From assembly GCA_028823445.1 (NCBI GenBank), contig JAPKBH010000004.1, forward strand, positions 1 to 64,000: a stretch of DNA of 64,000 nt, given 5' to 3'. Source of the stretch: Acidimicrobiales bacterium (lineage in GTDB: Bacteria > Actinomycetota > Acidimicrobiia > Acidimicrobiales > MedAcidi-G1). Shown here piece by piece: positions 36,571-64,000 of this stretch (positions within the stretch are counted from its first letter, which is position 1; each line of letters opens with the position of its first letter). A model generated the notes under the pieces. The model worked only from the letters and a program-made list of their open reading frames with translations. It ran no database searches and was not told the origin of the DNA. A program made the position numbers and the translations under genes.

Positions 36571-37319
36571 GAGCGCTTGACCCCGGTGGCCAACAAGGCA
36601 CCAGCAAAAATCAAAACAATGCCCGCCACCAAAGTGACGGCAAAACCAGTCATGGCATCAAACACCGAGTTCAACACCCCACCCGAACTCAACACCAAAG
36701 CACCAGCCACAATAGAAACATTGCCCCAAGCGCCTTGATCTTTGGCCCCGCCAAGAGCAAACAAGCGCACTGCCGAAACAGTAGAACCCACCATGATGAC
36801 TAAGGCACCCACCGACGAAGCCACGGCGGCGGCAATACGCGGCCCGGGCCCAAACACCGCACTGCCCTGCGGCAACTGACCGGGCACAAACTCGCCAACA
36901 ATTGGCGAAGCCACCACCAACCCCACCGCAAAAGCACACAGGGTTACCGTGACCGCCGCAATACGGTTAGCCACCGGGCGAGAAGCCATCAAATACACGG
37001 TGCCCAAAGCCAAAATCGGCACATTAGCCACCGCCCCAATGGCATAAAAAACTTTAAAAGGACCAGCCGACCAGCCCCCCGCCGCCCCCGCCAACAAAGC
37101 AAAAGCCGCCACCGTAAACAACAACAAAGCAGCCGTCCACGACGCATCTTGGGGGCGCCGACGATCTAACCAACGCTCAAACACCGTGGCCGTAAAAGCC
37201 AAAGCAACCAACCCGGCCGCAGCAGCGGCTGCCATTTGTGAAGTCACCCCTGCGACGGTAGAGGCCACAAACCCTCCTGCCACCCTGCCAGCACCTAGGT
37301 TTAAACTATGACCCCCCAA
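36567..37319 (-). CDS. Hypothetical multi-TM membrane protein
   Basis: About 8 hydrophobic segments, no recognised family. Confidence 0.65.
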   Translation of the reverse strand: MGGHSLNLGAGRVAGGFVASTVAGVTSQMAAAAAAGLVALAFTATVFERWLDRRRPQDASWTAALLLFTVAAFALLAGAAGGWSAGPFKVFYAIGAVANVPILALGTVYLMASRPVANRIAAVTVTLCAFAVGLVVASPIVGEFVPGQLPQGSAVFGPGPRIAAAVASSVGALVIMVGSTVSAVRLFALGGAKDQGAWGNVSIVAGALVLSSGGVLNSVFDAMTGFAVTLVAGIVLIFAGALLATGVKRS

Positions 37320-37949
37320 CCACCGCCCGCTGTTTCGGCCGCCACGGTGTCTCGGCTGCCCGTCTACCTCCGCGGGTTAGCCGACCTTGCGGCCAGCGAC
37401 CAAAACACCGTGTCCTCACAACAACTCGCCACCATGGTCGGAGTCAAAGCCACCAACGTACGCAAAGACCTTTCCTCGCTCGGTTTTTCTGGCACCCGCG
37501 GCGTGGGCTACCAAGTAACCACCCTGATGCAACAAATCGGTTTAGTGCTCGGCGACGGCCAACCCACACCAGTAGTCATTGTGGGCGCCGGCAACCTGGG
37601 CCGCGCCCTCAGTCGCTACGACGGCTTCAACAACGGCGGGTTCCCCATCGCCGCCCTCGTCGACGTTGACCCCAAAGTAATAGGTAAAAAAATATCAGGG
37701 CTCAAAGTAAAACCCCTCAACAAACTCACCCAAATCGTAACGCAACACCAATGCACCGTGGGCATCATTGCCACCCCCGCCGCCGCCGCCCAAGAAGCCG
37801 CCGATCAGTTAGTAAAGGCCGGCGTGCGCTCGCTCCTCAACTTCGCCCCCGGGGTAGTCACCGTGCCCAACACGGTTACCGTCCGCAAAGTAGACCTGGC
37901 CACCGAACTACACATCCTGGGCTACCACCAACAACGCCAAAACAAGTGA
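37308..37949 (+). CDS. rex: Redox-sensing transcriptional repressor Rex
   Basis: VSRLPVYLRGL, GVKATNVRKDLSSLGFSGTRGVGYQV, VIVGAGNLGRAL, DVDPKVIGKKISGL, LNFAPGVVTVPNTVTVRKVDLATELHIL. Confidence 0.95.
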   Translation: MTPQPPPAVSAATVSRLPVYLRGLADLAASDQNTVSSQQLATMVGVKATNVRKDLSSLGFSGTRGVGYQVTTLMQQIGLVLGDGQPTPVVIVGAGNLGRALSRYDGFNNGGFPIAALVDVDPKVIGKKISGLKVKPLNKLTQIVTQHQCTVGIIATPAAAAQEAADQLVKAGVRSLLNFAPGVVTVPNTVTVRKVDLATELHILGYHQQRQNK

Positions 37950-46965: not shown

Positions 46966-47243
46966 CGTGTTCTCCGGGGCGACGGTTTTAATGGTGGACG
47001 GTAGGTCGAAACTTACCGTTAGGCACGTTCGGGAGGGTAGCGGGGACGGTAGGCCAAATGGTGTCTTAATGGCCACCTCGGCCAAAAGAGTTCAAAAAGA
47101 AGTTGCAAGAGAATGCGTCGCAGAGGTGGTAGGGGCCACCTGCCGCGTGATAGAACTTGGACGTAAGAAAAAGAAGTTGACAGAGTTCTCTTGGCAAGTT
47201 GCCTTGGATCTCAGTTGGTCGGTTACGCTGGTGTTCGCACCGG

Positions 47244-47263
47244 TTTGTGCAATATTTCACAAA
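47244..47263. promoter_or_regulatory. Predicted Rex operator
   Basis: TTTGTGCAATATTTCACAAA; inner 18 nt match TTGTGAAATATTTCACAA at 17/18 positions; 34 nt upstream of the proposed ATG at 47297. Confidence 0.8.
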
Positions 47264-47296
47264 GTCCCTATTCGTCTTGCGAGGAGTACCAACGAC

Positions 47297-47752
47297 ATGG
47301 TCGCGTTTGCCGCATCCATCATTGTCACCATGTTGCTCCTCTGGGGCGTCAACTGGTACCAAAAACGTTGCCCTCAAGACAAAGTCTTTACCTGGGGCGA
47401 AGCCATGGCCTTCGCCACCTACGTCTTCCTTATCCTCTTCTGGGTCTACGGCGTCGTACCCCACCAATGGCTCACCTGGGCCGACAGCGAACTCAACTGG
47501 CGCCCCGACCGCTACGTAACTGGTCCCACCCTCTTCTGGACCGGCGACCAAGGCATCGTGGAATGGGCCCTCCCCTTCACCACCACCTACCAACTACTCC
47601 GCGACTTCATCGCCGTCGGCATCTACATAGGGATCCTCGCCGGCAACGTTTCGATATGGCGCTCTTGGCAAGAACGAGGCCAAGAAATAGCCGCCCCCAC
47701 CCCAACCTCAGAATACGGCCGCCCCTTGCTCAAAGAAGGAGCAGGTGCGTGA
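47297..47752 (+). CDS. Unrecognised membrane protein at the head of the bc/ferredoxin cluster (151 aa)
   Basis: GAGGAG RBS, ATG at 47297; MVAFAASIIVTMLLLWGVNWYQKRCPQDKVFTWGEAMAFATYVFLILFWVYGVVPHQWLTW...; longer ORF from 46967 would contain the Rex operator. Confidence 0.75.
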   Translation: MVAFAASIIVTMLLLWGVNWYQKRCPQDKVFTWGEAMAFATYVFLILFWVYGVVPHQWLTWADSELNWRPDRYVTGPTLFWTGDQGIVEWALPFTTTYQLLRDFIAVGIYIGILAGNVSIWRSWQERGQEIAAPTPTSEYGRPLLKEGAGA

Positions 47753-48165
47753 GCCTCGTAGACGCCAACCCGCCACTTCCTACCTTCATCGACGACTACG
47801 TCCTTCACCAGGTAGATGCCGACTGGTTGCTCAAATCGGTTAAACCCAAACAGTTCATTCACATTGACCAAGCCGAATGCATTATGTGCGAAGGCTGCGT
47901 CGACATCTGCCCATGGAAATGCATCCACATGGTGCAACCCGGGGCCATCGCTGAAGCCAACGGCACCGAACTTCCCGGTGACGACCCCAGCGACCACGTA
48001 ATCTTCACCATCGACGACGATGCCTGCACCCGGTGTGCACTCTGCGTCGACCGGTGCCCCACTGGGGTAATCATTTTGGGTAAAATCAGCGCCGCCGGCG
48101 CCGACGGAGATGCCCATCAGCGCACCAACACTCATGGCTACGGCTATGGGATGCGGTTGGGCTAA
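47749..48165 (+). CDS. 2x[4Fe-4S] ferredoxin-type protein
   Basis: CIMCEGCVDICPW and CTRCALCVDRCPTG; GTG start overlapping upstream TGA. Confidence 0.92.
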   Translation: MSLVDANPPLPTFIDDYVLHQVDADWLLKSVKPKQFIHIDQAECIMCEGCVDICPWKCIHMVQPGAIAEANGTELPGDDPSDHVIFTIDDDACTRCALCVDRCPTGVIILGKISAAGADGDAHQRTNTHGYGYGMRLG

Positions 48166-48210: not shown

Positions 48211-48999
48211 GTGGCCGAAGAAAACGGCAAGAAATCAACTGGGCAGGCGCTCCAAGAGCGCATGGGTCAGATGGGTGAACAGATGAAGGGCTCACAAGCC
48301 TGGGCGTCTATCTTCCGTCCTGGCTCTATTTTCCGCAAGGGCTACAGCGATAGCCCCCGGAACCGCTCGTACGTGATCATGAACAGCGTGCTCTACCACC
48401 TTCACCCGGTGAAGGTAAAGCGCCACGCGGTCAAAGTTAGCTACACCCTTTGCCTCGGCGGGTTGAGCTTCTTTTTGTTCATCCTGCTCACCGTGACCGG
48501 CATTTTCTTAATGTTCTTCTACCGACCCACCGCCGCTCAAGCCTGGGACGACATCCAAATCTTGCAAACCGCCGTCGGTTTCGGCTTGCTGGTGCGAAAC
48601 ATGCACCGCTGGGCCGCCCACCTCATGGTCATCTCGGTGTTCTTACACATGGCTCGAGTTTTCTACCACGGCGCCTACAAGCCACCACGTGAATTCAACT
48701 GGGTCATCGGCGTCATGTTGCTGCAATTCACCCTGCTGCTTTCCTTCACCGGTTACCTCTTGCCCTGGGATCAACTCGCCCTCTGGGCAGTAACGGTAGG
48801 GACCAACATGATGGGCTTTACCCCGGTATTTGGTCAACAAGTACGTTTCGTTCTTTTGGGCGGCGTAGAAATAGGCACCGACACTTTGCTCCGGTGGTAC
48901 GTATTACACGTACTGATGTTGCCCTTTGTCCTGGTCATATTTATGGCTATCCACTTCTGGCGCGTCCGTAAAGACGGCGGCATCTCAGGGCCGCTTTAG
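48211..48999 (+). CDS. Cytochrome b N-terminal (b6-like) subunit
   Basis: LHPVKVKRHAVKVSYTLCLGGLSFFLFILLTVTGIFLMFFYRP; RNMHRWAAHLMVISVFLHMARVF; SFTGYLLPWDQLALWAVTVGTNM; RWYVLHVLMLPFVLVIFMAIHFW. Confidence 0.92.
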   Translation: MAEENGKKSTGQALQERMGQMGEQMKGSQAWASIFRPGSIFRKGYSDSPRNRSYVIMNSVLYHLHPVKVKRHAVKVSYTLCLGGLSFFLFILLTVTGIFLMFFYRPTAAQAWDDIQILQTAVGFGLLVRNMHRWAAHLMVISVFLHMARVFYHGAYKPPREFNWVIGVMLLQFTLLLSFTGYLLPWDQLALWAVTVGTNMMGFTPVFGQQVRFVLLGGVEIGTDTLLRWYVLHVLMLPFVLVIFMAIHFWRVRKDGGISGPL

Positions 49000-49012
49000 G
49001 CGAGGAGACACC

Positions 49013-49735
49013 ATGACTGAGATACCCGAACACCTCCGCAAACGAGCCGAAGAAGCTCGAGCAAAAGCCGCAGCCGCCCAAGGAGGCGACGCTCCAGCAG
49101 CCGATGCCCCCGCAGCCAGCGGCGACGCCCCAACCAGCGGCGATAAAATCCCGGTCAACCTCTTAGACCGCACCACCCCAGCCTCTGGCCAAACAGCACC
49201 CGCCGGCGACGGCGCTCCAGCCATGGGCAGCGGCCCCGACGGGCACACCCAACGCTTGTTGACCGTCGTAAAATCCGGGTCGATCCAAGATGTAAAAATG
49301 ACCCCGCAAGACAAGGTCCACGTATGGCCCCACCTGCTGGTCATCGAATTCTTGGCCGCCCTAGCAATAACCCTGTTCACCACGCTGTTCTCCATCTTCG
49401 TCAACGCCCCCTTGCTGGAGTTAGCCGACTTCAACAAAACCCCCAACCCCTCCAAAGCCCCCTGGTATTTCTTGGGTTTGCAAGAACTGTTGACCATGTT
49501 CCACCCCATGGTGGCCGGGGTAACTATTCCCGGTATGGGCTTGATCCTTTTGGTCATGGCCCCCTACATGGACAAAAACCCTTCCAAGAAGCCAGAAGAT
49601 CGTAAGTTCGCTATCTCGCTTATGACCGTGCACTTCATGTTCTGGGCTGTGCTGGTCATGATCGGATCGTTCTTCCGTGGCCCTGGATTCAACTTCGTGT
49701 TCCCCTGGAACGCCGGCCTCTTCTTCGAACTGTGA
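49013..49735 (+). CDS. Cytochrome b C-terminal / subunit IV-like protein with long N-terminal extension
   Basis: MTEIPEHLRKRAEEARAK extension; FNKTPNPSKAPWYFLGLQELLTMFHPMVAGVTIPGMGL; IGSFFRGPGFNFVFPW. Confidence 0.9.
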   Translation: MTEIPEHLRKRAEEARAKAAAAQGGDAPAADAPAASGDAPTSGDKIPVNLLDRTTPASGQTAPAGDGAPAMGSGPDGHTQRLLTVVKSGSIQDVKMTPQDKVHVWPHLLVIEFLAALAITLFTTLFSIFVNAPLLELADFNKTPNPSKAPWYFLGLQELLTMFHPMVAGVTIPGMGLILLVMAPYMDKNPSKKPEDRKFAISLMTVHFMFWAVLVMIGSFFRGPGFNFVFPWNAGLFFEL

Positions 49736-50640: not shown

Positions 50641-51855
50641 ATGACTTCACTTATCCTCGCCGCCAGCACCCAACGATCCATCGGTTGGGCACTCGCCACC
50701 ATCGTGGTGGTGGGCTTTTCCGTCTACCTGCTCTTCAGTTTCCGCATCGGCAAGCAAGAACTCGGGTCAGAAATAGACACCGCATCCAACCGTAAAAAAC
50801 ACTACGAAGACGACGAACTCGAAACCCGCCGATTGGACTCTCACCTCGGTTGGTCGCTAGTAACCCTGGCCGCCGTATCAATGATCTTGCCCCTGTACTG
50901 GCTCATGGAACCTGCTCGCCAAGAAAACGCGGCCGAAACCTGGGTACGTCGTTTCGAGAGCCGCGGCGGACAAGAATTTGAAGGCGCCTGCTCAAGTTGC
51001 CACGGCCCCGGCGGTGTAGGCGGTGTAGCGGCCTTCACCCTGGTAGACAGCGATGGCGGTTTCGTAGCCCAAGTGGACTGGAAAGCCCCCGCCCTAACCA
51101 CCGTGCTTTCACGCTATGACGAGTCCGAAGTTGAATTCATCTTGAACTACGGTCGGCCCGGCAGCCCCATGCCCGCTTGGGGCTTGCCCGGTGGTGGCCC
51201 ACTGACCGAACAACAAATTCACCAACTGGTGGTCTACCTGCGGTCTATTCAACTTGACCAAGATGAAGCCATCGCCGAAGTAGCCTCTGGTGTAGAAACC
51301 GGCGCCCGCAACATCGTGATGATGGATGCAGCAGCCGCCATAGACGCCGACGACCTCGACGCTGCCGTAGCTGCTTGGCTCGAAGATGCGGTTGACCCGT
51401 CAAGCGACAATTACTTGGCTTACGGCGAACTTCTCTTCAATAACCCGGCCGCCCAAGGCGCCAACAGTTGTGCTCGCTGCCACACCCCCGGGTTCTCCTA
51501 CGGAGCCACCGACGCCGACAGCACCGACGCCCTTTTAGCCGAGTGGCCGGGCCTTAGCGAAAGCGGCCTACTCACCGGATGGCAACCCGGCGCCGGCCAT
51601 GTAGGCCCCAGCCTCTACGGCGTAGAAGCACATTTCCCTACCGCCGATGGCCAAACCGACTTTGTGCTTTCTGGCTCTGAAGTAGGCGTGGGCTACGGCA
51701 ACGCTCGTAGCGGCACCGGCGTCATGCCAGGCTTCGGAGGCCGAGTCGACGACGACCTGATCGACAAAGAAACCGGCGCTTCCGTGAACTACAGCCAACT
51801 GCTGACCCGTGAACAAGTCGCTGCCATAGTGGCTTACGAGAGGAGCCTCCGATGA
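50641..51855 (+). CDS. Diheme c-type cytochrome, membrane-anchored
   Basis: CSSCHGPGGVGG and CARCHTPGFSYG heme sites; two N-terminal TMs. Confidence 0.9.
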   Translation: MTSLILAASTQRSIGWALATIVVVGFSVYLLFSFRIGKQELGSEIDTASNRKKHYEDDELETRRLDSHLGWSLVTLAAVSMILPLYWLMEPARQENAAETWVRRFESRGGQEFEGACSSCHGPGGVGGVAAFTLVDSDGGFVAQVDWKAPALTTVLSRYDESEVEFILNYGRPGSPMPAWGLPGGGPLTEQQIHQLVVYLRSIQLDQDEAIAEVASGVETGARNIVMMDAAAAIDADDLDAAVAAWLEDAVDPSSDNYLAYGELLFNNPAAQGANSCARCHTPGFSYGATDADSTDALLAEWPGLSESGLLTGWQPGAGHVGPSLYGVEAHFPTADGQTDFVLSGSEVGVGYGNARSGTGVMPGFGGRVDDDLIDKETGASVNYSQLLTREQVAAIVAYERSLR

Positions 51856-52862
51856 GCGCCCTACTTATTTTGGGCGGCATCGCCTGGGACCCAACCATTG
51901 CCGGCGCCTTAGTGGTGGCCACCGGGGTCGCCACCTTCATGGGCTCCATCTGGTTGATCCTGTCAACCAACACCGGTATTCGGGTAGGCACCTTGATCTC
52001 GTTCGCCGCTTTCTTCGGCTGGATGACCATTTTGGCCGCCACCTGGTGGATGTACGGTTCGGGCTGGAAAGGTGAAAGCCCCTCCTGGCAAGTCATCGAC
52101 ATCAACGTCGGCGACCTCGGCCAAAGCGCGCTTTTAGAAGCCCGTTTACTGCCCAACCTTGAAGACCTCAAAAGCGGTTACGAACTGGTATTGGAATCCG
52201 GTGACGCAGCCGCCATGGCCGAATTCGCCACCCTGCCTTCGGCCGCCGACAACCCGGACCTTTCCGACACCGAGTTGGCCGCCCTGCAGGCCTCACGCCA
52301 ACTACGCAACGAAACCATCACCCACTCAGAGTTGGCCACCGCAGCCCCCAACGTGACCGATGCCGCCGGCTTCGACGACTTCAGCGGTTGGCATTTGTTG
52401 GCCACCACCCAAGCCGGAGATGCCCAAGCCCAAGCAATAGCCGACGTCTTGAACCACCCCTCCATGGGGTTCACCTCAAGTGCTGATTTCAAAATGTTAG
52501 ACACCTACACCATGGGCGGTAAACCCACCCTGGTAGAGAACCCCAACCGTCTTGACCGCATCACCCACTGGATAACCAGTTCGGCTCGACTCACGCACCC
52601 CGTGCGCTACACGGTGGTGCAATTGCAAGAAGTCGTGCACGTCACCGTGGCCCCCGGGGAAACCCCCGCCCGCCCGGTAATTGACGAAGCCAAATCAGTG
52701 GTCTCCGTGATCATGGTTCGCGACCTTGGTTCGGTTCGTTTGCGCCCTGCTTTAGTTTCCTTGGGCTCGTTGTTTATCTTTATCGCACTGTGTTATTGGC
52801 TTCACGTACGGGACAAAGAGGTTATGGCCCGTCGTGAGGAGTTCGAAAAAAACGGGAGCTGA
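51852..52862 (+). CDS. Unrecognised membrane protein (336 aa) between the diheme cytochrome and nuoA
   Basis: Two N-terminal TMs, ~200-aa soluble region, C-terminal TM (LRPALVSLGSLFIFIALCYWLHVRDKEVM); ATGA overlap with upstream gene. Confidence 0.8.
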   Translation: MSALLILGGIAWDPTIAGALVVATGVATFMGSIWLILSTNTGIRVGTLISFAAFFGWMTILAATWWMYGSGWKGESPSWQVIDINVGDLGQSALLEARLLPNLEDLKSGYELVLESGDAAAMAEFATLPSAADNPDLSDTELAALQASRQLRNETITHSELATAAPNVTDAAGFDDFSGWHLLATTQAGDAQAQAIADVLNHPSMGFTSSADFKMLDTYTMGGKPTLVENPNRLDRITHWITSSARLTHPVRYTVVQLQEVVHVTVAPGETPARPVIDEAKSVVSVIMVRDLGSVRLRPALVSLGSLFIFIALCYWLHVRDKEVMARREEFEKNGS

Positions 52863-52904: not shown

Positions 52905-53411
52905 ATGATTGGTCAATACCTGCCCATCATCGCTTTAGGCACCTTGGCGACCCTTTTTGCCGCCTTAAGTTTCGTGGCCTCCAAATTGTTGGCGCCCCGT
53001 AGCCCCAACGACAAAAAACTTGCCCCCTACGAATGCGGCATCATCCCCGAAAAAGAAACCCCCGAGCGTTTCCCAGTGCGTTTCTTCTTGGTGGCCATGA
53101 TCTTCATCGTGTTCGACATAGAGATCATCTTTTTCTACCCCTGGGCCATAGCGCATCGCCAAATCGGTCTCTTTGGCTTGGTTTCGGTCCTGATATTTTC
53201 GGCCGCCGTATTTGAATCTTTTGTCTACCTCATAGGCAACGGCGCATTGGAATGGGGCCCCAGCCGCCGCCAACGCTTTGCCGAAAGCCCCACCGGGCTA
53301 ATTTCGGCCGGGAGAACTGTGGAATCAACTATTCGTCGCACCAACTCATCTGAAGCAGGCGTGCGCTTGGTAGGAACCGAAGGCCGATATGCCGAAAACG
53401 AGGGCACCTAA
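52905..53411 (+). CDS. nuoA: NADH-quinone oxidoreductase subunit A
   Basis: [40 protein letters not shown]. Confidence 0.96.
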
Positions 53412-54022
53412 TGCCGCAAATACCTATTTTGGGCAACACCCAACACATCGCCAACGATGGTCTCGAAGGCCTCGACCACAACTTCGTCACCGCCCGCATC
53501 GAAGACCTCGTCAAATGGTCACGAGCTCGAAGCTGCTGGCCCGCCACCTTCGGTTTGGCCTGCTGCGCCCTCGAAATGATGGCCACCGGTGCCGCCCACT
53601 ACGACCTGGCCCGTTACGGCATGGAAGTCTTTCGCGCCTCACCACGTCAAGCCGACCTGATGATCGTGGCCGGCCGGGTATCACAAAAAATGGCCCCCAT
53701 ACTACGCCAAATTTACGACCAAATGATGGAACCCAAATGGGTGATCTCCATGGGGGTATGTGCTTCTAGCGGGGGCATGTTCAACAACTACGCCATCGTG
53801 CAAGGGGTTGATCAAATAGTACCAGTCGACGTGTACGCCCCCGGTTGCCCCCCCGGCCCCGAAACCCTTATGCACGCCATCTTGACCCTGCACGAAAACA
53901 TACAAAGCGGTGAACTGACCCGCCGCCGCGACGCCAACCAAGGTGGCGCAGCCATAGACCTTCCTCCCCTAGCCCCCGCAGCAAACCAATCGGTAACGCT
54001 CGGCGAAAAGGAGGGAGCATGA
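53411..54022 (+). CDS. nuoB: NADH-quinone oxidoreductase subunit B
   Basis: [78 protein letters not shown]. Confidence 0.97.
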
Positions 54023-54564
54023 CCGAAGAAAACGCCGCTCCCCCAGAAGAAACCGACCAAGAAACCGTTGAAGAAGTGGACCTCGGCCCCATGGCTTACG
54101 GGGTACCGGTCACCGAATCCTTTGGCCAAACGGTGCTTCACCCCACCCCCGATCAACTCATCGAAACGGCCACCGCCCTTCAGCAAGACGGTTTCTGCAT
54201 GGTCATCGACGTGACCGTAGTGGACTACCTGACCCACCCCGGACGCACCGACCTGCCAAGCGCCGTAACCCCCCAACGCTTCGAAGTAGTAGTAGCGCTC
54301 ATCAACCACCAACAAAGCACCCGCATTCGCCTCCGGGTGCAAGCCGGTAACGAGCAACCCACCGTGCCGTCGCTCTTCGACTTATTCCCGGGCACCGAAG
54401 CCATGGAACGCGAAGCTTGGGACCTTTTCGGTGTGACCTTCACCGACCACCCCGACCACTCTCGCATCTTGCTGCCCGACGATTGGGAAGGGCACCCCCT
54501 GCGCAAAGACCACGGCATGGGTGACATCCCGGTGCAGTTCTCCACCACGGTAGGCAACCGATGA
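54019..54564 (+). CDS. nuoC: NADH-quinone oxidoreductase subunit C
   Basis: [40 protein letters not shown]. Confidence 0.96.
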
Positions 54565-55856
54565 CCAGCGACGACCTCACCCTGGCTCTCGGCGACCCCG
54601 AACGAGTACACCGTCGAGAACAAAGTGCCGTACTACGAGTCAACGAAAGCGACGCCGAAGCCCTAACCGGCGACCCCGAAAACCCCGAAGACGATCACCG
54701 CATGATCCTCAACATGGGCCCCCAACACCCCTCAACCCACGGGGTACTGCGCCTCATGCTGGAAATGGAAGGCGAAACGGTCCTGCGCTCCAAGCCGGTC
54801 ATCGGCTACCTGCATACCGGCATGGAAAAAACCGCCGAAGGCCTGACCTACCTTCAGGGGCCCACCAACGTGACCCGCATGGACTACGCCGCACCGCTTT
54901 TTTCTGAACTGGCCTTCTCGCTGACCGTAGAAAAACTTTTAGGCATCGAAGTACCCCCCCGCGCCACCTGGATACGCATGCTGATGTGCGAACTCAACCG
55001 AATCTCGTCGCACCTATTGTTTCAAGCCACCAACGGCATGGACCTCGGGGCCGTCTCCATGATGATTTACGGATGGCGCGAGCGAGAAGAAGTACTGCGC
55101 TTCTTCGAAAAAGTTACCGGTCTACGCATGAACCACAACTACATTCGTCCCGGTGGAGTGGCGGCCGACTTGCACGACGGTTGGCGCCAAGATGTGCGAG
55201 AACTCCTTGACATGCTTCCGGCCCGCCTCGAAGAATATGACACCCTGCTCACCAATCAACCCATCTTTCAAGAACGGCTACAAGGCGTGGGTGTACTCAA
55301 CCCAGCCGAAGCCTTAGCGCTTTCTGCTACCGGGCCCATTTTGCGTTCCACCGGTTACTCCTGGGACCTCCGCCGCCACGCCCCCTACATGTTTTACGAC
55401 CAAGTGGACTTCGACGTAGTAGTCGGCACCTGGGGCGACTGCTTCGACCGCTACGCCATTCGCCAAAACGAAATACGCGAATCGCTGCGCATCATTGAAC
55501 AAATACTCGACCTCATGCCCGAAGGCGACTACCGGGTACAAAACAAAAAAGTAACCCCGCCGCCCCGAGCACGCATCGACGAATCAATGGAAGCGCTCAT
55601 CCACCACTTCAAAATCTTCACCGAAGGTTTTCATGTACCCCAAGGCGAAGCGTACGTAGCGGTAGAAAGCCCCCGGGGCGAGTTGGGTTGCTACATCGTT
55701 TCCGACGGCAGCCCCAAGCCTTACCGCATGCACATTCGTGGCCCCAGTTTCGTAAATTTACAAACCCTGCCCCACCTGATGGAAGGTGGCCTCATTGCTG
55801 ACGGGGTGGCCGTCATTTCTTCGGTAGACCCCATCATGGGCGAGGTGGACCGCTAA
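54561..55856 (+). CDS. nuoD: NADH-quinone oxidoreductase subunit D
   Basis: NMGPQHPSTHGVLRLMLEMEGE; IGYLHTGMEKTAEGLTYLQ; PRGELGCYIVSDGSPKPYRMHIRGPSF. Confidence 0.97.
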   Translation: MTSDDLTLALGDPERVHRREQSAVLRVNESDAEALTGDPENPEDDHRMILNMGPQHPSTHGVLRLMLEMEGETVLRSKPVIGYLHTGMEKTAEGLTYLQGPTNVTRMDYAAPLFSELAFSLTVEKLLGIEVPPRATWIRMLMCELNRISSHLLFQATNGMDLGAVSMMIYGWREREEVLRFFEKVTGLRMNHNYIRPGGVAADLHDGWRQDVRELLDMLPARLEEYDTLLTNQPIFQERLQGVGVLNPAEALALSATGPILRSTGYSWDLRRHAPYMFYDQVDFDVVVGTWGDCFDRYAIRQNEIRESLRIIEQILDLMPEGDYRVQNKKVTPPPRARIDESMEALIHHFKIFTEGFHVPQGEAYVAVESPRGELGCYIVSDGSPKPYRMHIRGPSFVNLQTLPHLMEGGLIADGVAVISSVDPIMGEVDR

Positions 55857-56503
55857 TGAGCCGCTTTACCGAACTCAATGCTCGCCGAGCCCACGAAATC
55901 ATCAGCCACTACCCCAGGGCCCGCTCAGCCATAATCCCCTTGCTGCACCTCGCCCAAGAACAAGAGGGCTGGATCACCAACGACGCCATGACCCAAATCG
56001 CAGAACTCACCGGAGCCACCGCCGCCGAAGTCCTCGGCACCGGCAGTTTCTACGAAATGTTCAAGTTCCACCCGGTAGGCCGCTACTTGGTGAACGTCTG
56101 CACCAACATTTCTTGCCAACTACTAGGCGGCGAAGAACTACTCGAACACGCCGAAACCACCCTCGGCATTACCGACGGGCAAACCAGCGACGACGGGTTA
56201 TTTACCCTCGAAGACGTGGAATGCGTCGCCGCCTGCACCGAAGCCCCTTGCTTCACCGTCAACTACCGCTACTTTCACCGGGCCACGCCAGAGACCTTTA
56301 GCGAAGTGGTCGCCGAACTACGGGCCGGCCGCAACCCCATGGAAAAAGGCCAACAAGGCGACCGAGGAGAAATCCCCGACCACGGCACCCTGTCTCGCAC
56401 CCTGCAACACATACCCGCCGATCGCAAAGCGGGCATCGTGGCCCCCGAAGAAGCCGCCCAAGCCCCAAGTTGGATGCCTACCGAAACGGGGGAAAACGCA
56501 TGA
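55856..56503 (+). CDS. nuoE: NADH-quinone oxidoreductase subunit E
   Basis: LLHLAQEQEGWITNDAMTQIAELTG; VNVCTNISCQLLGGEELLEH; VECVAACTEAPCFTVNYRYF. Confidence 0.95.
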   Translation: MSRFTELNARRAHEIISHYPRARSAIIPLLHLAQEQEGWITNDAMTQIAELTGATAAEVLGTGSFYEMFKFHPVGRYLVNVCTNISCQLLGGEELLEHAETTLGITDGQTSDDGLFTLEDVECVAACTEAPCFTVNYRYFHRATPETFSEVVAELRAGRNPMEKGQQGDRGEIPDHGTLSRTLQHIPADRKAGIVAPEEAAQAPSWMPTETGENA

Positions 56504-57909
56504 CCACCGAGGCCCCCGCTTTCGCCGCCGGTTTCATAAACAACCAAGGCCCCAAACTCATCACCGGCCGCTTCACTATCGAAGACTCGTTCACCCTCAA
56601 ACGCTCTCTCGCCACCGGCGGTTACGACGGGCTCAAAAAAGCACTCGCTCGCCCCCCGGCCGATGTACACGGCGAAGTACGCGACGCCGTGCTGTTAGGC
56701 CGCGGCGGTGCAGGTTTCCCCGCCGGCGTCAAATGGGGCTTCTGCCCCGAAGGCGTATGGCCCCGCTACCTCGTAGTCAACGGCGACGAAAGCGAACCCG
56801 GCACCTACAAAGACCGCCTGTTGATGGAACGCGACCCCCACCAACTCATCGAAGGCTGCCTCATTGCCTGCTACGCCCTGGGCCTCTCGCAATGCTTTCT
56901 CTATGTACGCGGCGAAATGGCTTTAGCTCAAGAACGCATCGCCACGGCACTCAACGAGGCCTACGCCGATGGGCGAATAGGACGCAACATCATGGGCACC
57001 GACTTTTCGGTAGACATCGTGTTGCACTGGGGTGCCGGCGCTTACATCGTGGGCGAAGAAACGGCCCTCATCGAAAGCCTGGAAGGTAACCGAGGCATGC
57101 CTCGCCTCAAACCCCCGTACTTCCCAGCGGCCATCGGCCTCTACGGCCAACCAACCATTGTCAACAACGTAGAAACCTTAGCCAACCTGCCTTGGATCAT
57201 GAACAACGGCGCCGAGGCCTACAAAACTATGGGCTCCGAAACCTCCCCCGGCACCCGACTTTTCGCCGTCTCCGGCCACGTCAACCGGCCCGGCGTATAC
57301 GAAGTAGAGCAAGGGGTCACCACCTTCCGTGACCTCTTCTACGGCGACAACTTTTGCCAAGGCATGCGCAACGGAAACGACCTCAAAGCGTTCATCCCGG
57401 GCGGCGGGTCAGCCCCCTGGTTCTTTGAAGAACACCTTGACCTTCCCCTCGAAGCCCGCCCGGTAGGAGCCGCCGGCTCCATGCTGGGTTCCGGAGCCAT
57501 CGTGGTTATGGACCACACCACCGACGTTGTTAAAGCCTGCCTGCGTTTGGTTCGTTTCTACGCTCGGGAATCCTGTGGCAAATGCGCACCGTGCCGTGAA
57601 GGCACCACTTGGGAAGAAAAAGTGTTGCGCCGTATCTACGAAGGCCAAGGCCGCCCCAGTGACCTCGACCTCTTAGAAGACATCGGCGACAACATCAGCC
57701 CCGGCCCCTACCCGGTAGCTTCCTTCGCCGACCAAGACCTCGAAGCAGTGCCCTTCCCACCCAAACAAACCACCATCTGCCCGCTCGGGCCCTCATCGGT
57801 GGCGCCAATCTCTTCAGCCCTGCGCCGCTTTCGCCCCGAATTCGAAGCACTCATTACCTTGCGCGACAGCATCGCCGTAAGCGCCGCCCCCATCCCGGAG
57901 GACGCATGA
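56500..57909 (+). CDS. nuoF: NADH-quinone oxidoreductase subunit F
   Basis: LLGRGGAGFPAGVKWGFCPEG; NGDESEPGTYKDRLLMERDPHQLIEGCLI; ESCGKCAPCREGTTW. Confidence 0.96.
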   Translation: MTTEAPAFAAGFINNQGPKLITGRFTIEDSFTLKRSLATGGYDGLKKALARPPADVHGEVRDAVLLGRGGAGFPAGVKWGFCPEGVWPRYLVVNGDESEPGTYKDRLLMERDPHQLIEGCLIACYALGLSQCFLYVRGEMALAQERIATALNEAYADGRIGRNIMGTDFSVDIVLHWGAGAYIVGEETALIESLEGNRGMPRLKPPYFPAAIGLYGQPTIVNNVETLANLPWIMNNGAEAYKTMGSETSPGTRLFAVSGHVNRPGVYEVEQGVTTFRDLFYGDNFCQGMRNGNDLKAFIPGGGSAPWFFEEHLDLPLEARPVGAAGSMLGSGAIVVMDHTTDVVKACLRLVRFYARESCGKCAPCREGTTWEEKVLRRIYEGQGRPSDLDLLEDIGDNISPGPYPVASFADQDLEAVPFPPKQTTICPLGPSSVAPISSALRRFRPEFEALITLRDSIAVSAAPIPEDA

Positions 57910-60374
57910 GCGACGAAACCTCCACCGGGGTAGAAATCACCCTCAACGGCCAAACCGTGTTAGCCCGACCCGGTGAACTCCTCATCGACGCCGCCGAACG
58001 CATGGGCACAGAAATTCCACGCTTCTGCCACCACACCCGCCTCAAGCCGGTCGGCATGTGCCGCATGTGCCTCGTCGAAGTAGACACCGGACGCGGCTCG
58101 GCTTTGCAGCCCTCCTGCATGGTGACCTGCACCCCCAACATGGTGGTCGACACCGAATCAGAAACCGTGGCCAAAGCCCAAGACGGCGTGCTGGAATTCC
58201 TGCTCATCAACCACCCACTGGATTGCCCGGTTTGCGACAAAGGCGGCGAGTGCCCCCTGCAAGACCAAACCATGGCCTACGGCCCCGGCGAAAGCAGATT
58301 CGTAGAAGAAAAACGCCGCTACAAAAAACCAATTCCCCTCAACGAAAACGTTTTCATGGACCGCGAGCGGTGCATTTTGTGCGACCTTTGCACCCGCTTT
58401 GCCGGCGATGTCGCAGGTGACCAACTCATCCACTTTCAAGGCCGGGGCGCCCAAACCGAAGTCAATACTTTCCCCGAAGAACCCTTCAGTTCGTACTTCA
58501 GCGGCAACACCGTACAAATTTGCCCCGTCGGCGCATTAACGGCCAAGCCCTACCGCTTCAAAGCCCGTCCCTGGGACCTCGACGAAACCGAATCAACCTC
58601 CATGGTGGACTCCGTAGGCAGCCGCATCTCTATCGAGTCTTCTCGCGGCCAGGTACTTCGCTTACAAGGCGTAGATTCCGATGCCGTCAACTGGGGTTGG
58701 CTGTCCGACAAAGAACGCTTCATCTTCGAGGCCTACGAACACCCCGATCGCCTCACCAGCCCCCTGATACGCAACCCCGAAACCGGCGACCAAGACCCCA
58801 CCTCATGGGACCACGCCCTAGAAGCCGCCGCCGGCCTGCTCGCTGGTACAGACCCCGACCGCTTGGCGGTAATCGGCGGCGCACGCTTAACCAACGAGTC
58901 GCAATATGCCTGGGCCAAGTTGGCCAAAGGCGTGTTAGGCACCGACCACATGGACGCCCAACTCTGCGACGGACTCCCCGCACACTTCATGCTGGGCCTG
59001 CCCCGAGCCACCATTGACCAAGCCTGCACCCCCGGCGGCACGGTGGTCTTAATGGGTCCCGACCCCAAAGAAGAACTGGGCGCCCTCTACCTGCGCCTGC
59101 GCCACGCCGTGGTTCATGACGGAGTAACCCTCATCGAACTCACCCCCCGGGCCACCGGCCTTACCCCCTACGCCGCACATTCACTGCGGGTACGCCCGGG
59201 CGAAGCTGCCGAAGTGGTTCGCTCCATGTTTGGCGAAGGCGGCGTAGCCCCCAGTGGCGGCATTACCCCCGAAAGCGCTCAAGCGGCCGGCGCCCTATTG
59301 CAAGCCGCCGACACGGTCACCGTGTTGCTGGGCCGAGCATCTTTAGCCGAAGCCGAAGGACCGGTCATGGACGCCGCTTTGGCTCTCCACGACCGCCTGC
59401 CCGAGGTTCGTTACCTCTCGCTGTTGCGCCGCTCCAACGTGCACGGCGCCATTGATATGGGCCTGGCCCCCGGCTTGTTGCCGGGCCGCACCACCCTGGT
59501 AGCGGGCCGCACCAACCTGGCTCAAGCCTGGCCCGGCCTGCCCAAAGAAACCGGACGATCCACACAAAAAACTCTCGAAGCGGCCGCCGCCGGCCAAGTA
59601 GACGTCTTGATTTTATTAGGCGCCGATCTTCTGGCCGACGTCCCCGACGGCGACCTGGCCCGCCGCGCTTTAGGAAAAGTCGGCACGATAATAGCCTTAG
59701 ACCTCTTTGGCACAGCCACCGTGGCCCGAGCCGACCTGGTGCTTCCCGCCGCCGGCCCCACCGAAGTAAACGGCACCTTCACCAACCTCGAAGGACGAGT
59801 CAGCCCGGTTTCTCGCCAAGTGACCCCACCGGGAACCGCCCGTCCCGACTGGATGATCGCCGTGGACTTAGCTGACCGGTTAGGAACCGACCTCGGCTTC
59901 ACCAGTCCCGAAGAAATATGGCAAGAAATAACTGAAGTATCAGCGGCCCACGCCGGCCTCACCGAACAACTGGCCGCCGACCCCCGAGAAGGTGCCTTGG
60001 CCACCGGTGCCTTGGCCCTCTACCGGCCAGAACCCACCGAGGTGGCTCGCCGTGATGCGTATTCTTTCCGGTTGGTGGCCTCTCGCTCTATGTACGACCA
60101 AGGAGTGTTCACCGCCCACAGCCGCTCACTGTCTGGTTTGGCCCCCACCACCTGCTTGGCTTTTGAACCCACCGACTTTGCCTCTTTAGGGGTCGAAGCG
60201 GGCCAAAGCGTTGACGCCACTGGCCCTCGAGGCACCGTGGCGGTGACCGTCGGGCCCGACCCACGTGTAGCCAAAGGCACCGCCCACCTTGGGTTCAACC
60301 AAGCCGGCGCCACGGCCACCGAGTTCATTGACGCCTCGGTACCGGTAACCGACCTCACGGTGGTGCCCCGATGA
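57906..60374 (+). CDS. nuoG: NADH-quinone oxidoreductase subunit G
   Basis: VGMCRMCLVEV; CPVCDKGGECPLQDQTMAYGPGESRF; RCILCDLCTRF; molybdopterin-type domain. Confidence 0.95.
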   Translation: MSDETSTGVEITLNGQTVLARPGELLIDAAERMGTEIPRFCHHTRLKPVGMCRMCLVEVDTGRGSALQPSCMVTCTPNMVVDTESETVAKAQDGVLEFLLINHPLDCPVCDKGGECPLQDQTMAYGPGESRFVEEKRRYKKPIPLNENVFMDRERCILCDLCTRFAGDVAGDQLIHFQGRGAQTEVNTFPEEPFSSYFSGNTVQICPVGALTAKPYRFKARPWDLDETESTSMVDSVGSRISIESSRGQVLRLQGVDSDAVNWGWLSDKERFIFEAYEHPDRLTSPLIRNPETGDQDPTSWDHALEAAAGLLAGTDPDRLAVIGGARLTNESQYAWAKLAKGVLGTDHMDAQLCDGLPAHFMLGLPRATIDQACTPGGTVVLMGPDPKEELGALYLRLRHAVVHDGVTLIELTPRATGLTPYAAHSLRVRPGEAAEVVRSMFGEGGVAPSGGITPESAQAAGALLQAADTVTVLLGRASLAEAEGPVMDAALALHDRLPEVRYLSLLRRSNVHGAIDMGLAPGLLPGRTTLVAGRTNLAQAWPGLPKETGRSTQKTLEAAAAGQVDVLILLGADLLADVPDGDLARRALGKVGTIIALDLFGTATVARADLVLPAAGPTEVNGTFTNLEGRVSPVSRQVTPPGTARPDWMIAVDLADRLGTDLGFTSPEEIWQEITEVSAAHAGLTEQLAADPREGALATGALALYRPEPTEVARRDAYSFRLVASRSMYDQGVFTAHSRSLSGLAPTTCLAFEPTDFASLGVEAGQSVDATGPRGTVAVTVGPDPRVAKGTAHLGFNQAGATATEFIDASVPVTDLTVVPR

Positions 60375-61576
60375 ACTTGCTTGCTCTCGACCCACTGCTC
60401 AGCGGCGATATTGACCTGACCATCGTGCTTATCGTGCTGCTCAAAGTGGGAATCGCTTTTACCTTTTTGTTGATCTCGGTCATGCTCATGGTCTGGTTCG
60501 AACGCAAACTCATTAGCGACATGCAAAACCGTATCGGCCCCGACGTGGCCGGGCCGTGGGGCATTTTGCAAACCCTGGCCGACGGCATCAAGTTGTTCTT
60601 TAAAGAAGATTTGATTCCCGAACGAGCCGACCGGTTTGTTTTCAAACTGGCCCCCTACCTCTCTTTGGTGCCGGCCTTTTTGGTTTTCGCCGTGGTGCCC
60701 ATCGGGGGAGACTTTCGCAATGATGCCGGCGGCGTGGTGACCTGGTTCGGTCACCAAACCTTGCTTCAAGTAGCCGACCCGCCGGTAGGCATCCTCTTTT
60801 TCTTAGCTATGTCGTCCATTGCTGTCTACGGCGTCATGTTGGCTGGCTGGTCTTCGGGCTCCAAGTACCCCTTGCTGGGTGCGGTGCGCGCCTCGGCGCA
60901 AATGATCAGCTACGAAGCCGCCTTAGGTTTAGCCATGGCCACCGTATTTTTGATGAGCGGCACCTTGTCTACCAACGGCATCGTGGCCGACCAAGCCACC
61001 TGGAACTGGAACGCCGTCACCACCGGGGTCGTGCCCTTCATCATTTTCTTGCTGGCCGGCACCGCCGAACTCAACCGGCCACCCTTTGACTTGGTAGAAG
61101 CCGAACAAGAACTGGTCGGTGGCTTTCACACCGAATACAGTTCGCTTCGTTTTGCCCTGTTCTTCTTGGCCGAATTCATGAACGTCATCACCATGTCGGC
61201 CATCGCCGTAACCCTGTTCTTAGGCGGCCCCAACGGCCCCATCCTCATCGAATCAGTAGCTTGGTTGTGGCCACCGCTCTGGTTCTTCGCCAAAGTAGCG
61301 GTCTTCCTCTTTACTTTTGTATGGCTACGCGCCACCCTGCCTCGTTTTCGCTACGACCAACTCATGGACCTCGGCTGGAAGATGCTGATCCCCGCCGCCC
61401 TGGGCTGGTTCTTGCTAATTGCCGCCTTAAACATCGGTGGCGACCGAGGCTGGCCCACCTGGGCTGTGGTCGGAACCGGCATGGTGGTCGGGGTGTTGGG
61501 CTACCTTGCCCTCACCGGTGCCATACGTAAAGCCACGCTGGATCGCGCCGGCCAAGACTTTGAAGGAGTGAACTAA
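60371..61576 (+). CDS. nuoH: NADH-quinone oxidoreductase subunit H
   Basis: WFERKLISDMQNRIGPDVAGPWGILQTLADGIKLFFKEDLIP; LNRPPFDLVEAEQELVGGFHTEYSSLRFALFFLAEF. Confidence 0.97.
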   Translation: MNLLALDPLLSGDIDLTIVLIVLLKVGIAFTFLLISVMLMVWFERKLISDMQNRIGPDVAGPWGILQTLADGIKLFFKEDLIPERADRFVFKLAPYLSLVPAFLVFAVVPIGGDFRNDAGGVVTWFGHQTLLQVADPPVGILFFLAMSSIAVYGVMLAGWSSGSKYPLLGAVRASAQMISYEAALGLAMATVFLMSGTLSTNGIVADQATWNWNAVTTGVVPFIIFLLAGTAELNRPPFDLVEAEQELVGGFHTEYSSLRFALFFLAEFMNVITMSAIAVTLFLGGPNGPILIESVAWLWPPLWFFAKVAVFLFTFVWLRATLPRFRYDQLMDLGWKMLIPAALGWFLLIAALNIGGDRGWPTWAVVGTGMVVGVLGYLALTGAIRKATLDRAGQDFEGVN

Positions 61577-62178
61577 TGGGGTACCTCCAAGGCTTCGCCG
61601 TTACCTTTAAAAAACTTTGGGAAAAACGGGTCACCGTGCCCTACCCCGAACAAAAACGTGACAAACCAGCCCGCCTGCATGGCCGCCACGTACTCAGCCG
61701 CTACGAAGACGGCATGGAAAAATGCATCGGCTGCGAACTCTGCGCCGGGGTATGCCCCGCTAACTGCATTTACGTGCGGGGCGCCGACAACCCGCCCGAT
61801 CACCCAGTTTCGCCGGGAGAGCGCTACGGCTTTGTCTACGAAATCAACTACCTGCGGTGTATTCACTGCGACCTCTGCGTCGAAGCCTGCCCCACCCAGG
61901 CCATCACCGAAACAAAACTCTTCGAGTTTTCGTTCACCAACCGCACCGACGCTGTTTACACCAAAGACGAACTGTTGGTCGATGCCGACACCGGCCAACC
62001 CCAGCATTTACCTTGGGAAGATTGGCGACCCGGTGAAGACGAAAACACCTCTGGCTGGATGCGCGCTACCTCACCGAGCGGCTCCGCAGAACACACCGGT
62101 TTGGTGGCTTGGGATGGCGAACTGGGCTACGGCATTCGTGCCCCAGAAGATGGCCAACGCAGCGAGAAAGAAAACTAA
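61576..62178 (+). CDS. nuoI: NADH-quinone oxidoreductase subunit I
   Basis: CIGCELCAGVCPANCIYV and CIHCDLCVEACPTQAI. Confidence 0.96.
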   Translation: MGYLQGFAVTFKKLWEKRVTVPYPEQKRDKPARLHGRHVLSRYEDGMEKCIGCELCAGVCPANCIYVRGADNPPDHPVSPGERYGFVYEINYLRCIHCDLCVEACPTQAITETKLFEFSFTNRTDAVYTKDELLVDADTGQPQHLPWEDWRPGEDENTSGWMRATSPSGSAEHTGLVAWDGELGYGIRAPEDGQRSEKEN

Positions 62179-62759
62179 TGGACGCTGCAGTTTTTCTTAT
62201 TAGCGCCGTAGTGGTGCTGTCGGGCGCCGTCGGCGTGTTGTTGGCTCGCAACCCGATACATGCCGCCTTGTTCCTGGTAGAAACCCTTTTCGGTATCGCC
62301 GTACTCTTCATCTTGTTAGACGCCACCTTTTTGGCCGCTGTGCAAGTAGTGGTTTACGCCGGAGCCATCGTCATCTTGTTCCTCTTTGTCATCATGTTGT
62401 TGGGAGTCGACCGAGCCGACGACCTGGGCATTGAACCCATTGCCGGCCAACGCCCCATGGCGGCCGTCATCGGGGCCTCGTTGTTGGGTCTCACCTTGAC
62501 CACCCTGCTGATTTCCGTAAATGGCCCCACCGGTGACGCTGGCCCGACCGCCGTGCTCGGAAACGCCGAAACCAACACCCGGCTTTTAGGCGAAGCGCTT
62601 TTTACCGACCACGTTTTTGCCGTAGAACTCACCGCACTTTTGCTGACGGTGGCCATCGTGGGAGCCGTAGTGCTGGCCCGCCGCATTAGCGGGCCCCTGC
62701 AACCTCTACCCGGCGTAGCTATTGCCGTGGCCAACGATCAAGAAACCGAGGAGGACTAA
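62178..62759 (+). CDS. nuoJ: NADH-quinone oxidoreductase subunit J
   Basis: [52 protein letters not shown]. Confidence 0.95.
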
Positions 62760-63064
62760 TGGAGGTCACCACCACCTGGTACTTGGTTTTAGGTGCTGTG
62801 CTCTTTACCTTGGGCACGGTCGGGGTGTTAACTCGCCGCAACCCACTGGTCATGTTCATGTGCGTTGAACTCATGCTTAACGCCGTCACCCTCACCTTGG
62901 TGGCCTTTGGCGCCGCCCTCGGTGACTTGGGCGGGCAAGTGTCAGTGTTCTTTGTGCTGGTAGTAGCCGCCGCCGAAGTGGTCGTTGGTTTAGCAATCAT
63001 CGTGGCCATAACCCGCCGCCGTCCCGGTACCACCGTGGACGATCTCTCGGTGTTAGGAGGCTAG
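62759..63064 (+). CDS. nuoK: NADH-quinone oxidoreductase subunit K
   Basis: [46 protein letters not shown]. Confidence 0.95.
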
Positions 63065-63068
63065 GAAC

Positions 63069-64000
63069 ATGCTTGATCTGGTTTGGCTCATCCCCGCCTT
63101 CCCCTTGGCCGGCTTTCTTTTCTTAATGATCTTTGGCCGCCGCTTAGGCGAACCCAAAGCAGGCTGGGTAGCGACCGCCGCCATAGCCGCCTCATTCGCC
63201 GCCACTTTGGGGGTGTTTCTTGAACTGACCTCCCTCTCGGTGCACGATCGCCGCTCAGTAACCACCCTGTTTGCTTGGGTACCGGCCGGCGATTTCTCGG
63301 TCGACGTAGGTTTCTTGGTGGACCCTTTATCCATCACCATGTGCCTTTTCATCACCGGCGTGGGAGCACTCATCCACCTGTACTCCATTGGTTACATGCA
63401 CGGCGACCGGGACTACAACAAGTTCTTTACCTACCTCAACCTGTTTGTTTTTTCCATGTTGATGCTGGTGTTGGGCAACAACATGCTGTTGACCTTCCTT
63501 GGTTGGGAAGGCGTCGGGGCATGTTCGTACCTGCTGATCTCTTTCTGGTTCGATGACGAAGCCAACGCCTCAGCCGGTAAAAAAGCGTTTGTCACCAACC
63601 GCATCGGCGACTGGGGCTTCATGGTGGCCATCTTCGCTACCTTCTTTACCTTTGGAACCATCAACTACGCCGAGGTGCTCGACGCCACCGCCTCAGGCCA
63701 ACTTTTGCAGTCCACGGCCACCCTGATCGCCGTGATGCTCTTCATTGGCGCTATCGGTAAATCGGCGCAGTTTCCGCTTTACCTCTGGCTGCCCGACGCT
63801 ATGGCCGGCCCCACCCCCGTGTCGGCGCTCATCCACGCCGCCACCATGGTCACCTCGGGCATTTACCTCTTGACCCGCATCAACCCCATCATCGCTGATG
63901 CCGCCGACTGGCTCCCCACCCTTATTGCCTGGGTCGGAGTAGGCACCGCACTCTTTGCGGCCACCATCGCCGTGGCCCAAACCGACATCAAAAAAGTGTT
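63069..64000 (+). CDS. nuoL: NADH-quinone oxidoreductase subunit L, truncated by window end
   Basis: MLDLVWLIPAFPLAGF; SIGYMHGDRDYNKFFTYLNLFVFSMLMLVLGNNMLLTFLGWEGVGACSYLLISFW; KSAQFPLYLWLPDAMAGPTPVSALIHAATMVTSGIYLLTR. Confidence 0.96.
   Translation, partial: MLDLVWLIPAFPLAGFLFLMIFGRRLGEPKAGWVATAAIAASFAATLGVFLELTSLSVHDRRSVTTLFAWVPAGDFSVDVGFLVDPLSITMCLFITGVGALIHLYSIGYMHGDRDYNKFFTYLNLFVFSMLMLVLGNNMLLTFLGWEGVGACSYLLISFWFDDEANASAGKKAFVTNRIGDWGFMVAIFATFFTFGTINYAEVLDATASGQLLQSTATLIAVMLFIGAIGKSAQFPLYLWLPDAMAGPTPVSALIHAATMVTSGIYLLTRINPIIADAADWLPTLIAWVGVGTALFAATIAVAQTDIKKV

Follow-up and report, generated by a model that had tools for sequence, protein, structure and literature searches.

A putative Rex operator ahead of a joined ferredoxin, cytochrome bc and complex I gene run in a marine Acidimicrobiales genome

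Described Rex systems and the Acidimicrobiales locus

In Streptomyces avermitilis, Rex directly regulates atp, nuo, rex-hem and ndh2, and has been footprinted at the rex promoter on TTGTGCACGCGTTCACAA (PMC5355995). Its footprint at cydA1 runs from -3 to +25, a precedent for an operator at or just after the transcription start site (PMC5355995). Firmicutes have A/T-rich Rex boxes such as that of Staphylococcus aureus, TTGTGAAWWWWTTCACAA (quoted in PMC5355995), and their Rex regulons consist mostly of fermentation and nitrate genes.

The stretch analyzed here, a window of 64,000 nucleotides from an Acidimicrobiales genome, carries a candidate operator for Rex, an NADH-sensing repressor, ahead of genes for aerobic respiration, which sets its targets apart from those of Firmicutes; the kind of control is familiar, its place new. 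The pattern TTGTGAAN4TTCACAA, including its GTGCA variant, is common to the Rex regulons (ROP sites) of S. avermitilis and S. coelicolor and to the present locus, and the window box has the same variant half-site, GTGCA, as the S. avermitilis rex operator TTGTGCACGCGTTCACAA (PMC5355995). Its central AATATT is of the A/T-rich type seen in Firmicutes. As in Streptomyces, rex heads a hem operon, and the Streptomyces targets nuo, atp, rex-hem and ndh are largely those that carry the motif in relatives of this genome. Unlike in Streptomyces, the operator heads a joined ferredoxin, bc and complex I run, bc genes being unmentioned in PMC5355995, and at rex and atp this genome lacks an operator. The features of the locus, with the evidence for each, are as follows.

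37236-37242, + strand: lone half-site TTGTGAA upstream of rex; best rex-promoter score, 8/14
37308-37949, + strand: rex, first gene of rex-hemA-hemC-hemD-hemB-hemL; NCBIfam Rex equivalog, Pfam
47224-47229, + strand: probable -10 element TACGCT (TANNNT); TANNNT conserved at this place in the family
47245-47262, + strand: putative Rex operator TTGTGCAATATTTCACAA, within a 20-nt palindrome (47244-47263); motif match, genome uniqueness, conservation
47281-47286, + strand: ribosome-binding sequence GAGGAG; sequence
47297-47752, + strand: first gene, three-helix membrane protein; conservation from this ATG
47749-48165, + strand: 4Fe-4S ferredoxin gene with GTG start; Pfam Fer4 families
48211-49735, + strand: split cytochrome b, b6-like at 48211-48999 and petD-like from 49013; Pfam PF00033, PF00032
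49732-50607, + strand: Rieske protein gene; Pfam PF00355
50641-51855, + strand: cytochrome c gene; Pfam
51852-52862, + strand: gene without a family in Pfam or NCBIfam searches
52905-64000, + strand: nuo1 (complex I), nuoA onward; NCBIfam NuoA, NuoF, NuoG

Throughout the order the bc/complex I run opens with the first gene, whose product had no match by family (Pfam, NCBIfam), by sequence, in PDB or by fold. Successive genes are separated by -70 to +45 nt, and nuo1 extends past the window end by about 4.5 kb, as far as nuoN, as seen in L220. The b6-type cytochrome at 48211-48999 scores above the NCBIfam cut-off for ExtP, a cytochrome of selenite/tellurite operons (304 versus 290 bits), a match that is likely due to an over-broad model. 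Beyond the window, 124 nt after nuoN1 of the 14-subunit cluster, a second complete nuo cluster begins (L220 5124-15620, equal to contig C50 68623-79119). It comprises 11 subunits (A-D and H-N, without E, F and G), is possibly a ferredoxin- or F420-fed form, and has its own box in just four g4 genomes and one g1 assembly. The labels g1 to g6 are anonymous names for genera within the family, g1 being that of the present genome and g2 that of MedAcidi-G1; the MedAcidi-G1 and MedAcidi-G2B genera are assigned to the photic zone (PMC10205998).

The palindrome, its promoter and its conservation

The sequence-only reading had described a near-perfect palindrome matching the classic Rex box at 17 of 18 positions, and a recount bears this out. 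Positions 47244-47263 read TTTGTGCAATATTTCACAAA, self-complementary at 18 of 20 positions, and the inner 18 nt (47245-47262) agree with the Rex box TTGTGAAATATTTCACAA at 17 of 18. A pattern search for the exact form TTGTGN8CACAA returned this site as the sole copy both in the window and in the 1.93 Mb genome. With a threshold of at least 13 of the 14 fixed positions of TTGTGAAN4TTCACAA, the operator (13/14) is again the one genomic site; by chance, about 0.11 sites this strong are expected in the genome and about 1e-5 in a 250-bp promoter. A loose pattern allowing two mismatches was found 31 times in the window with 31 expected, so weight attaches to the strong match alone.

The same reading had placed the start of the first gene at ATG 47297 rather than at that of the longer open reading frame. 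An alignment of 38 proteins supports this placement, since the product is nearly invariant from V2 A3 F4 onward; the longer frame would merely read through promoter and operator. The GAGGAG sequence precedes this ATG.

Orthologs of the first gene occur in 52 of 61 relatives, and 83 distinct upstream regions, 40 from the family and 43 more distant, were compared; the sequences are related, so the counts that follow are non-independent. Absence of the site from orthologous intergenic regions had been named beforehand as grounds for rejecting it. The box was present in all 40 regions of the family (MedAcidi-G1-type Acidimicrobiales), each matching at 12 or 13 of 14 positions, and in 29 of the 43 distant regions at a threshold of at least 11/14, a score that shuffled regions reach in 0.5% of cases. 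The other 14 distant regions have no clear box, though many of these genomes carry rex. The box lies at varying distances from the start codon and its middle bases differ from site to site, whereas both arms are fixed. Position 6 is C in 39 of the 40 family sites, the window included, and the right arm TTCAC is invariant in the family; over all 69 sites, T12 is kept in 68 and T13 in every one.

Natural loss of both rex and the box was seen in a single case, G044, which retains hem (hemA included) and nuo genes but lacks rex at the expected place, as well as the first gene and the box at theirs. Absence of rex from G039, G037, G030, G011 and G021 was set aside as uninformative, as no true hemA was found in them either, and likewise in G004, where the contig ends within hemA. 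G039 has a strong box before atpI, which suggests that its rex is probably just unassembled.

The promoter itself has a conserved geometry. All 40 family regions have a TANNNT hexamer whose first base lies 18-22 nt and whose end lies 12-16 nt upstream of the box, while in 19 of the 29 distant regions with a box it begins 4-5 nt upstream. The spacing between hexamer and box thus differs by about 15 nt between the family and other families (L035-L049 versus L001-L033), with both elements conserved. A scan for sigma-70 consensus promoters gave no match at the site, and a -35 element was not recognizable. From the position of the hexamer, transcription would start near 47236 and place the box at about +10 to +27, where it would cover early transcribed bases, as fits a repressor.

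Candidate regulators and the reach of control

The box very probably is an authentic Rex operator. The candidate regulator is encoded 10 kb away, where the sequence-only reading had reported a rex gene; the NCBIfam Rex equivalog and Pfam models confirm the assignment, and the protein retains the recognition segment VRKDLS..G..GTRGVGY and the Rossmann motif GAGNLG. The motif match alone does not decide the matter, as the CRP/GlxR boxes of actinobacteria share the TGTG-N8-CACA geometry and at least one CRP-type helix-turn-helix protein is encoded in every genome searched. CRP/GlxR proteins also control respiratory genes in mycobacteria and corynebacteria, so the targets are shared too, and a CRP/GlxR-family box (TGTGAN6TCACA) would put the operon under cAMP or a related signal. 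This is nevertheless an improbable account of the site. The C at position 6, in place of A, in the window and nearly all family sites breaks the TGTGA of the CRP/GlxR core; T12 and T13 are fixed, though the outer TCACA is all that CRP requires; the box follows the -10-like hexamer, a position that would ill suit an activator, expected upstream of the -35 region or overlapping it; and in relatives the motif also precedes rex itself. Still more remote is a palindrome that arose by chance and has no function. A/T-rich palindromes do arise randomly, and the window holds no more copies of the loose pattern than chance predicts, but throughout the family and in much of the order this promoter carries the motif, with a variable middle between fixed arms.

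The occurrence of the motif at rex and respiratory promoters in relatives supports Rex over CRP. Across 61 genomes the strict pattern TGTGAN5TTCACRA gave 56 matches and the reversed control pattern 8. Outside bc/nuo, strict matches precede genes for Rex, a second NuoA, NDH-2, a fumarase and a small ferredoxin, and others fall within reading frames. Relatives in the same genus have further boxes before oxidase subunit I (five genomes) and the ATP synthase operon. A matrix built from bc/nuo sites alone was then applied to rex and atp promoters, with a chance rate of 0.0008 per promoter. It found the motif at the rex promoter in three sister genera (5/5 genomes of g3, 5/6 of g4 and 3/5 of g6) and in 11/21 of other families (own genus 0/6, g2 0/4), and at the atp promoter in 4/4 of g3, 6/6 of g4, 7/7 of g6 and 5/7 of g1; the ATP synthase promoter carries it in 22 of 30 family genomes. 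In two genomes of g2 (at L156 and L157), a 76-aa ferredoxin gene has a strong Rex-type box some 100 nt ahead of it. Contig C30 of G001 (L160) bears, besides that genome's own copy, an extra nuoA2 that is 94-98% identical to those of g4 genomes and has a g4-type box, reflecting either contamination or recent transfer.

Under Rex control, the protein, free or bound to NAD+, would bind just downstream of the -10 element over the early transcribed bases and repress an operon running from the first gene through ferredoxin and cytochrome bc to nuo1. Build-up of NADH, under low oxygen or excess reductant, would release Rex and allow the NADH-oxidizing machinery to be made. Binding, repression, the response to NADH and a single transcript through nuoN1 are all predictions from sequence.

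Rex control probably covers the whole run to nuoN1, given that the genes are tightly packed and their order is conserved. Alternatively, Rex may control the first genes alone (first gene, ferredoxin and bc), with nuo1 read from a promoter of its own. Gaps of 45, 33 and 42 nt inside the run would leave room for such an arrangement, and promoter- and terminator-like matches occur in the region, the promoter-like ones at chance level. The genes nevertheless overlap nearly throughout the run, the distance from the first gene to nuoA1 stays at about 5-6 kb across the order wherever both lie on one contig, and nuo of S. avermitilis is itself a Rex target (PMC5355995), all of which makes a separate nuo1 promoter rather unlikely and favors a Rex-controlled run to nuoN1.

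A regulon that may have shrunk to one operon

In the present genome and its sister G006, promoter scans found no operator at rex, atp or an oxidase gene, and the strict pattern has zero matches in G006, the closest relative. The best score at the genome's own rex promoter is just 8/14, whereas relatives have full sites there; the lone TTGTGAA at this promoter is possibly the remnant of a lost autoregulatory operator. Other candidates in the genome (C38:4129, C28:47549, C8:31495, C24:42466, C8:42560, C35:595 and C38:10241) were rejected because they lie inside reading frames. The bc/nuo operator is thus likely the only Rex target left, in a genome that is 95% complete and in which weak sites could be missed.

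New here is that this species pair appears to be without the rex and atp operators that its relatives keep. In g2, too, the rex and atp operators are absent, so that the bc/nuo operator, with its fixed variant half-site, would be the last one retained in both genera, apart from the ferredoxin box of two g2 genomes. It is about as likely as not that Rex in this lineage has shrunk from the regulator of a small regulon to a dedicated one-operon repressor without autoregulation; the earlier regulon supposed in that reading would have comprised rex, atp and bc/nuo and, in some relatives, nuo2, an oxidase or NDH-2. Rhodopsin was considered as a possible correlate of Rex operator loss, an idea that was dropped because rhodopsin was found in just two g2 genomes and in none of the present genus.

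If these observations hold, Rex control as known from Streptomyces would also operate in uncultured marine Acidimicrobiales and at an operon that combines bc with complex I. Among the close relatives, the loss of one operator after another from a redox regulon would form a clear natural series, and the shared putative operator marks the first gene (47297-47752) as a respiratory component worth study.
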